Below, in pieces: positions 17,494 through 56,718 of a DNA stretch of 64,000 bases; the first letter of the stretch is position 1; each line of letters starts with the position of its first letter. The notes below the pieces were generated by a model. It ran no database searches. It was not told the origin of the DNA and saw nothing but the letters and a program-made list of their open reading frames with translations. Origin of the DNA: Ereboglobus sp. PH5-10. GTDB taxonomy: Bacteria > Verrucomicrobiota > Verrucomicrobiia > Opitutales > Opitutaceae. A program made the position numbers and the translations under genes. The stretch lies in contig NZ_JAQFIP010000004.1 in the NCBI RefSeq assembly GCF_029504735.1, positions 62,001 through 126,000 on the forward strand, given 5' to 3'.

Positions 17494-18678
17494 TCATGAA
17501 AACATTCCGCCGCGCACCTCGAACATTTGCCACGCGCCGAGTTCGGCGTCGGGCGGGGCGGTGCCGGTGGCGAGGATTTGGTTGCGCGAGTCGTCGCTGT
17601 TGATGCCCGCCCAGAAGCGGCGTCGGCGCTGAGGGTCGAGCTCGCCCAAAACGTCGTCGGCAAGGAGCACGGGGTTCACGCCGGTTTGCTCGCGCAGATA
17701 CGCGGCCTCGGCGAGGCGCAGCGAAATGGCGAGGCCGCGTTGCTGGCCCTCGGAGGCGAACTCGCGCGCGGGGCGTCCGCCGACGGTCAGTTCGCAATCG
17801 TCGCGGTGCGGGCCGGAGAGCGTGGCGCGCATGAGCGTGTCGCGTTCGCGTCCCGAGGCGAACTGGCTTGCCCAGCCGGTTTCGTCGAGCGCGGTCCCGT
17901 TGGCGACGCTGGGCGCGTAGGCGATGGCGGCGGCGGGGTAGGGCGAAGCCTCCGGCTGAGCCGCGGGCATCGACTGGTTATCGATGCGATCCGGCTCAGC
18001 CGGAGGCTTCGCCCTACCTTCGGCGACGGCGGTGATTTTTTCGTAGGCGGCGGCGACGTGTGTGTTCAGTTTTTCCACGCCCGCGGCGCGGCGTTTCGCG
18101 AGTTGCGCGGCGGCGCGGGCAAGCGGTTGCTCGAAGGCGTCGAGTTCGGCGGAGAGCGCGGACGCGCCGCCGTTGCCGCGCTTGAGGAGCTGGTTTCGCG
18201 AGGCGAGGGCGCGGTGGTATTCCTGAAGCGCGCGGAGGTATTCGGGATCGGTTTCGGCGAGGGCGAGGTCGAGCCAGCGGCGGCGTCCGCCGGGCGAGCC
18301 GCGCACAAGAAGCAGGTCCTGCGAGGTGAAAACGACCGTGGGAAAGCGTCCGATGTAATCGCCGAGTTTGCGGATGCGCTCGCCGTCGCAATGCACTTCC
18401 TTTCCGCCGGGGCGCAGGCGGATGGTCACGCGCGTGAGGCCGAATTTCTCGTGCTCGATTTCGCAGGCGATGGCGGCCTCCGGTTTGCCGTGCGCGATGA
18501 GCGTGCGGTCCTCGCTTGTGCGAAACGAGCGGAGCGCGGAGATGAAGCCGGCGGCCTCGAGGAGGTTGGTTTTGCCCTGCGCATTTTCACCGACGAAGAA
18601 CTGCCGCGAGTTGTCGAACGCGAGTTCGGCGAACGCGATGTTGCGGAAGTTTTGAACGGTGATGCTTTTTAGATGCAC
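17494..18678 (-). CDS. recF: DNA replication and repair protein RecF, carrying an in-frame palindromic insertion
   Basis: RecF is an SMC-like ATPase that helps load RecA at gapped DNA. The 394-residue protein starts MHLKSITVQNFRNIAFAELA, has Walker A GENAQGKTN near residue 31, the signature region LSGPHRDDCELTVGG and ASEGQQRGLAISLRLAEAA, and Walker B LADDVLGELDPQRR. Residues about 221-247 (PAEPDRIDNQSMPAAQPEAS region) are encoded by an 80-bp perfect palindrome (17938-18017) that also exists as an intergenic element elsewhere in this window. It keeps the frame open, so RecF is probably functional with an extra low-complexity loop. dnaA, dnaN and gyrB are not adjacent. Confidence 0.93.
   Translation of the reverse strand: MHLKSITVQNFRNIAFAELAFDNSRQFFVGENAQGKTNLLEAAGFISALRSFRTSEDRTLIAHGKPEAAIACEIEHEKFGLTRVTIRLRPGGKEVHCDGERIRKLGDYIGRFPTVVFTSQDLLLVRGSPGGRRRWLDLALAETDPEYLRALQEYHRALASRNQLLKRGNGGASALSAELDAFEQPLARAAAQLAKRRAAGVEKLNTHVAAAYEKITAVAEGRAKPPAEPDRIDNQSMPAAQPEASPYPAAAIAYAPSVANGTALDETGWASQFASGRERDTLMRATLSGPHRDDCELTVGGRPAREFASEGQQRGLAISLRLAEAAYLREQTGVNPVLLADDVLGELDPQRRRRFWAGINSDDSRNQILATGTAPPDAELGAWQMFEVRGGMFS
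17938..18017. repeat. 80-bp palindromic element inside recF
   Basis: Perfect 25-bp inverted arms, 17938-17962 and 17993-18017, begin with GTAGGGCGAAGCCTCCGGC. The 30-base centre contains a second nested stem (GCATCGA ... TCGATGC). The same arm family occurs as a different-centred palindrome at 56593-56656 and as a decayed copy near 41141-41185. This is REP/MITE-like and inserted in a coding sequence. Confidence 0.85.
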
Positions 18679-41092: not shown

Positions 41093-41140
41093 CGCGGCTG
41101 TTTCGGTTTAAATTGTCGTGAGAAACTGCCTTTTGGTAGA

Positions 41141-41185
41141 GCGAAGCCTCCGGCTGAGCCGCAACATTCCCGGCTCACCGGGACA
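41141..41185. repeat. Decayed copy of the recF-type palindrome
   Basis: GGTAGAGCGAAGCCTCCGGC followed by TGAGCCG matches one arm of the palindrome in recF with one change. The opposite arm is degenerate (CGGCTCACCGGGAC). It lies in the 198-base gap between the HD and YeiH genes, which has no other recognisable content. Confidence 0.55.
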
Positions 41186-56490: not shown

Positions 56491-56718
56491 GTAGGGGCGC
56501 ACCTTGCGTGCGTCCTCGTGGTCGCCCGCTTTGTGCATACGCTCGCACACAGTCTCTCGCATAATACCAACGTCTACGAGCTTTTGGACTTTGGTAGGGC
56601 GAACCCTCCGGGTGAGCCGTTCACGGCTTCGGCTCACCCGGAGGGTTCGCCCTACCCTGAATAGTCTGAAAACATAAGGATGTTGGTATAAGAGGTCGCA
56701 TGTCAGGTGCGTCCCCAC
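56491..56718. repeat. Nested palindromic element in a gene-free gap
   Basis: Three concentric inverted pairs occur: GTAGGGGCGCACC (56491-56503) with GGTGCGTCCCCAC (56706-56718), one mismatch; ATACCAAC (56564-56571) with GTTGGTAT (56682-56689); and a perfect 26-bp pair (56593-56618 with 56631-56656) whose arm is the recF-type sequence GGTAGGGCGAACCCTCCGGG. The gap between the PHP and deoA genes holds nothing else but the PHP terminator. It looks like one palindromic element inserted into another. Confidence 0.8.

Follow-up and report, generated by a model that had tools for sequence, protein, structure and literature searches.

The recF gene of Ereboglobus sp. PH5-10 contains a long inverted repeat that is read through without a stop codon, which raises the question of what this repeat is, how it came to lie within a conserved DNA-repair gene and on what terms the gene has kept it. 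The gene is located in the window analysed here, a stretch of 64,000 nt, and the repeat was compared with the rest of the source genome (G000), with three congeners (G001, G002 and G003) and with a member of another genus of the same family (G031). We consider it very probable (roughly 0.9) that the segment is a GTAG REPIN, a non-autonomous mobile repeat that was inserted in an ancestor common with the nearest congener and has been tolerated in frame as a disordered loop. Such a repeat would most likely move as single-stranded DNA by means of a RAYT transposase, and one copy would have entered recF in the ancestor of the source genome and G001. It would have survived because its phase and length left the frame open, and because the loop that it added should be proline/alanine-rich, near-neutral and disordered, at a turn between a helix and a β-strand and away from the ATPase motifs.

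Architecture of the recF repeat and its family

The recF gene (positions 17494–18678, minus strand) starts with GTG and encodes a protein of 394 aa, which matches NCBIfam TIGR00611 with 301.7 bits (cut-off 172); no second full-length match to RecF turned up in the source genome. The repeat occupies positions 17937–18018: GTAG and CTAC bound a span of 80 bp, beyond which one G/C follows at each end. Arm complementarity, hairpin folding and flank-base statistics served to delimit it. It is a head-to-head dimer of two REP arms of 27 nt each, which are 100% complementary and separated by 28 nt. The arm on the plus strand (17937–17963, AGCC/GGCT subtype) is the second in the sense of the gene and is read as AQPEASPY, while its identical inverse on the minus strand (17992–18018) comes first and is read as GRAKPPAEP. 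In the earlier note the element was described as a perfect 80-bp palindrome with 25-bp arms that are identical inverses and with a separate stem in its centre. The arms are indeed perfect, the 25 bp being the inner part of the actual 27-nt arms, and the central stem appears in the RNA fold; "perfect" overstates the case for the whole span, since the centre is imperfect, with an inner stem of 8 bp. The minimum free energy of the 96-nt RNA fold was −78.8 kcal/mol, compared to a mean of −36.8 (sd 3.3) for 200 shuffled sequences, none of which was as stable (z −12.7). With its inverted REP pair, short spacer and single long hairpin, the recF element has the organization of a REPIN.

The same arm family is present elsewhere in the window, where the 25-mer arm has five matches at up to three mismatches, compared to none in 100 shuffles. 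Arm matching identified a second REPIN of the short class (62 bp; ACCC/GGGT subtype) at positions 56593–56656, whose arms differ from that of recF at two positions that compensate each other within the hairpin, and no reading through this copy scored as coding on both sides. A single arm with one mismatch was identified at about 41135–41160 (plus strand); this arm near 41136 is probably the remnant of a dimer. Both copies had been noticed previously, as a palindrome of the same arm family and a decayed copy near 41141, and both proved to be real.

The genome-wide count of the arm that had been proposed confirmed its repetitive nature: 74 arms were found in G000 at up to three mismatches, with no match to a reversed control pattern, and the exact 26-nt arm is present at 20 places. 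The family amounts to 50 REPINs in G000 along with 19 single REPs, to 45 and 23 in G001, and 11 and 5 in G002, while the 65%-complete assembly of G003 contains three single arms. All of these counts are lower bounds, because a decayed copy in the Mur ligase gene of G000 escaped the pattern search and the G001 set comprises 100 of 102 arms.

The dimers fall into two main length classes, of 61–62 and 79–80 bp. Each arm starts with GTAG and contains stem pairs 5–7/23–25 and 10–13/17–20 around a three-base loop, in most arms with a GA/GA internal loop in the hairpin. The unpaired GTAG at the hairpin end (GTAGGGCGAAGCCTCCGGCTGAGCC), together with dispersal in many copies and head-to-head dimers in G000, places the family in the GTAG superfamily. 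Three arm subtypes were distinguished (AGCC..GGCT, ACCC..GGGT and ACCG..CGGT). Among 93 distinct arms, 45 have C-G and 33 have G-C at pair 11–19, and the corresponding numbers at pair 13–17 are 59 and 27; the stems therefore change on both sides, as in hairpin covariation, although related sequences were tallied apart in these counts, which do not amount to a test of independent events. The previous classification as a REP/MITE insertion is thus correct as regards a mobile REP-type repeat, for which GTAG REP dimer (REPIN) is the precise name, rather than a generic MITE.

A GTAG-started imperfect palindrome of a different sequence, GTAGGGGCGCACCTTGCGTGCGTCC, lies at positions 56492–56516, just upstream of the second REPIN. 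It probably represents a further REP-like family, because the flank that contains it matches about 29 places in G001 among the matches listed.

Orthologous sites and the predicted RecF loop

The RecF alignment suggested in the earlier note separates filled, empty and decayed states of the site. The same element is present in recF of G001, with two base changes inside and an additional 15 bp alongside, whereas recF of G002 lacks the segment, with a net difference of 78 bp (counted by hand in the alignment). The 27 residues are also missing from 5/5 more distant RecF proteins, all belonging to named assemblies of Opitutaceae or of other verrucomicrobia. In G003, whose synonymous distance is about 0.54, a decayed, non-palindromic version of the REPIN has remained in frame and is followed by Q/N/S/P-rich repeats. 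This is the sole non-palindromic version, and none of the distant RecFs showed the pattern that would have spoken against an insertion, a similar protein segment not encoded by a palindrome. Judging from these alignments, the palindrome is an insertion into recF. It thus belongs to the coding REPs, which lie in frame in a functional gene and are missing in relatives, function being judged here from conservation. The repeats downstream of the decayed REPIN in G003 form an in-frame expansion, and the loop is longer there by several dozen residues.

The peptide encoded by the REPIN (GRAKPPAEPDRIDNQSMPAAQPEASPY, 27 residues, at about positions 221–247) lies within the open 394-aa frame, in agreement with the earlier observation that the palindrome adds about 27 residues without a stop. 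The ATPase motifs (Walker and signature) are preserved in the RecF alignment. Outside the insert, comparison with G001 gave dS 0.096 and dN 0.0074 (dN/dS 0.076), and the gene is therefore maintained by purifying selection. An AlphaFold2 model based on nine sequences was of moderate quality (mean pLDDT 70), and the solved structures nearest to it are RecF proteins. Residues 223–245 have a pLDDT below 50 and are preceded by a helix (172–219) and followed by a strand (250–255). The insert is thus predicted to form a disordered loop. RecF is presumably still functional despite the insert, and the loop itself may well be neutral.

Host genes, reading phase and length of the genic copies

Genic copies were called with a self-trained codon model and open-frame tests, followed by Pfam/NCBIfam scans; the host names given are those of the best family match, some proteins being cut by the fetched stretch. 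The genic share of the REPINs is 6/50 in G000 (recF, metH, mnmG twice, hemH and penicillin acylase), 11/45 in G001 (the G000 set plus AddA/UvrD, SNF2, a DinG-like helicase, a Mur ligase and ksgA) and 6/11 in G002 (mfd, hrpA, an ABC-F ATPase, acylase, a P-type ATPase and a glycosidase). Arms scored as single were found within a DinG-like gene of G000 and hsdM of G002. Sites common to several genomes were counted once, and readings near gene starts (loci L001 and L019, and the 5′ end of the RAYT gene itself) were excluded. An exosortase ORF (G000:C1:299456, 79 bp), which is below the score threshold and has the repeat after the exosortase domain, was also excluded, and G001:1361964 (coding scores 0.14/0.10, no recognised protein), flagged as genic by the script, was dropped. 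In mnmG, two in-frame REPINs of 60 and 90 bp within one gene have been kept in both G000 and G001.

G031 has a REP of its own, with 106 arms. Thirty loci were fetched from this genome, yielding 22 distinct sites with 15 dimers, the remaining 8 loci being second arms of the same dimers. No genic site was scored among the 22, of which two or more were too near the end of a contig for a judgement; the family as a whole therefore does not share the tolerance of genic REPINs.

Comparison of orthologues revealed further loci with and without the element. The G000 genes for AddA, ABC-F, Mfd and KsgA lack a REPIN where a congener has a genic one, the mfd and ksgA segments of G000 differing from their REPIN-bearing orthologues in further ways. 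In two cases, hrpA (G000 versus G002) and SNF2 (G000 versus G001), one protein loop holds a REPIN in the congener and an unrelated low-complexity segment or tandem repeat in G000. Such loops may act as insertion hot spots, as far as can be judged from the alignments. Filled and orthologous sites were aligned in 18 pairs and then in 7 pairs, from which no target rule was derivable, with indels, other repeats or a shared element at most flanks. The exact target site and any duplication are unreadable because the flanks of the element-free orthologues have also changed; the comparisons of addA and of recF, in which the flanks lack a clean empty site, show no target-site duplication. G001:650870, considered as an empty-site comparison with G000, was rejected, since by the look of the alignment it is rather a deletion between GCG direct repeats.

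These comparisons also bear on two other explanations of the recF segment. It could be an ancestral loop of RecF, palindromic by chance or lost elsewhere, and the related non-palindromic segment in G003 is what such a history might leave behind; the recurrence of the exact arm across the genome and the lack of the segment in G002 and all five other RecFs refute this within the RecFs sampled and make it extremely improbable. Alternatively, the inserted loop may alter RecF activity and have been kept for that reason, a speculation already made by Di Nocera et al. with regard to DNA-repair genes and amounting to an adaptive role. Repair or helicase-type hosts do recur among the 16 host genes (recF, DinG-like helicase, AddA/UvrD, SNF2, Mfd, HrpA), in a raw tally without a background rate, and the G003 copy has stayed in frame over its long divergence while its palindrome decayed. 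Against this, the other hosts are as varied as metH, mnmG, hemH, penicillin acylase, Mur ligase, ksgA, ABC-F ATPase, P-type ATPase, glycosidase and hsdM. Furthermore, the same loops carry different repeats or none in sister species, and tolerance therefore fits better than a specific function; we regard an adaptive loop as quite unlikely.

A REPIN has three possible reading phases. Of those of the recF copy, one contains stops, one is Arg-rich (net charge +8) and one, with a net charge of −1, is that used by the gene; the last runs from GRAKPPAEP to AQPEASPY and contains six prolines. The first arm is read in this phase, giving a GRA[K/N]-type peptide, in 17/17 independent genic events in three genomes (16 dimers and the single arm in hsdM), and never in the Arg-rich phase (two-sided binomial p=1.5e-5 under the null of both open phases being used equally; post hoc). 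The phase of the second arm is set by the dimer length modulo 3, and dimers of 3n+1 bp bring it into the Arg-rich reading LSRRLRPT. Such dimers account for none of the 16 genic compared to 28 of the 49 non-genic copies (Fisher p=2.2e-5, also post hoc), and in G000 alone for 0/6 compared to 26/44 (p=0.008). For the non-genic lengths, only G000 and G002 were used (49 of 83 non-genic dimers), because orthologues would otherwise have counted twice. Both tests were devised after the pattern had been noticed. When the two doubtful sites (the exosortase ORF and G001:1361964) were taken as genic, the 3n+1 class rose to 2/18 (p=0.0017) and the phase bias was unchanged. Replication of the phase bias in G031 found no genic site to score among its 22.

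We interpret the bias as selection on the encoded peptide, against charged and hydrophobic inserts. At the level of the genus, we tentatively propose, at a little less than even odds, that protein-level selection decides which REPINs persist in genes, and that the surviving phase and lengths spell a proline/alanine-rich disordered linker. The repeat would then be a dispersing linker-coding module, entering loops, frequently those of helicases and repair enzymes, that are also entered by other repeats in sister species. The phase bias could instead stem from the insertion mechanism, if the transposition complex placed the repeat between codons or at a target sequence that by chance occupies one codon phase. 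A target or end preference does exist: in 98% of 170 flanks (85 dimers) a G adjoins GTAG on its outer side, the flanks are T-rich at positions −3 to −5, and their commonest last four bases are TTTG (36/170); in addition, a GAA codon precedes four genic copies (recF, addA, hrpA and ABC-F). DNA insertion, however, is blind to codon phase, and the missing 3n+1 genic dimers concern the second arm, which is hard to explain through target preference, so that this mechanism seems an unlikely source of the bias. If the filter by peptide selection holds more widely, it would offer a direct measure of the insert peptides that proteins tolerate, and protein-level selection could be separated from insertion bias.

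The associated RAYT gene and comparison with known systems

The search for a RAYT-type transposase proposed in the earlier note was successful. Among eight places with Y1_Tnp matches in G000, the gene at C4:189077–189532 matches NCBIfam REP_Tyr_transpos (NF047646) with 94.4 bits (cut-off 80) and is flanked by REPINs of the same family on both sides, at 188986–189064 and 189532–189611, as is characteristic of a REPIN/RAYT system. Relatives of this RAYT occur in 41/61 genomes of the family, and a permissive scan, run without a control for chance matches, found a GTAG-started hairpin of some kind within about 350 bp of 25/29 further RAYT loci. Hairpins beside the gene are the usual REP/RAYT arrangement. 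At the orthologous place of G001, no RAYT of this type was present, despite the 45 REPINs of that genome, and the best G001 match is only 44% identical, with another REP type alongside. The link between RAYT and REPIN is therefore an association, in which the RAYT probably mobilises the family.

This RAYT gene takes its stop codon from the downstream REP, whose GTAG contains the TAG, so that repeat and gene overlap; the TAG of an arm terminates a coding-scoring upstream ORF in 2/116 arms of G000. In the permissive scan, the 25 RAYT loci with hairpins, from G001 and other genomes of the family, have GTAG-started hairpins of their own sequence, e.g., GTAGGGCGGTTTCGCCGAAACCGCC next to the G001 RAYT at 216053, which provide material for a study of RAYT-REP co-evolution.

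REPINs and RAYTs of Pseudomonas were reportedly described by Bertels and Rainey in 2011 as dispersed, RAYT-linked inverted pairs of REPs with a short spacer, and are said to be mainly extragenic. The elements described here share the inverted pair, the short spacer and the RAYT link, and differ in their genic shares (6/50, 11/45 and 6/11). Palindromic elements that lie in frame in functional genes were, reportedly, also described by Ogata et al. in 2000 in Rickettsia. Going by a review (PMC10969869), the likeness is that of palindromic repeats in frame within functional genes. Di Nocera et al. (PMC3733652) assign RPE-4 and RPE-6 to the CGTC superfamily, for which they found no association with transposase genes; by that description, the Rickettsia elements differ in superfamily.

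The closest counterparts are found in Opitutus terrae. Di Nocera, De Gregorio and Rocco (2013; PMC3733652) defined the GTAG repeats and found genic ones to be most numerous in this species, with hosts that include DNA-repair genes, e.g., the two uvrA genes; as explanations they put forward either loops that are neutral or a change in repair. The O. terrae dimers are similar in their GTAG end, hairpin, head-to-head arrangement and bacterial group (going by the named RecF relatives), and also in lying in frame in genes, encoding 20–30 residues, having DNA-repair hosts and being associated with RAYT. They differ in the separation of the GTAG-17 head-to-head dimers, given there as 1–2 bp, compared to the spacers in Ereboglobus, which give dimers of mostly 61–62 and 79–80 bp. 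A term search of the main text did not find recF as a host. Since coding REPs in DNA-repair genes were published in 2013, the recF case is not a first; it adds a host to a known kind of genic GTAG insertion and extends the O. terrae observation by documenting the RAYT, the host genes and element-free orthologues. The regularity of phase and length is possibly new: the sections of PMC3733652 considered here contain no mention of it, and a literature search, mostly at abstract level and thus weak evidence of absence, found no report. The recF locus illustrates how a mobile DNA repeat becomes part of a conserved repair protein, with the filled, empty and decayed states preserved in one genus.
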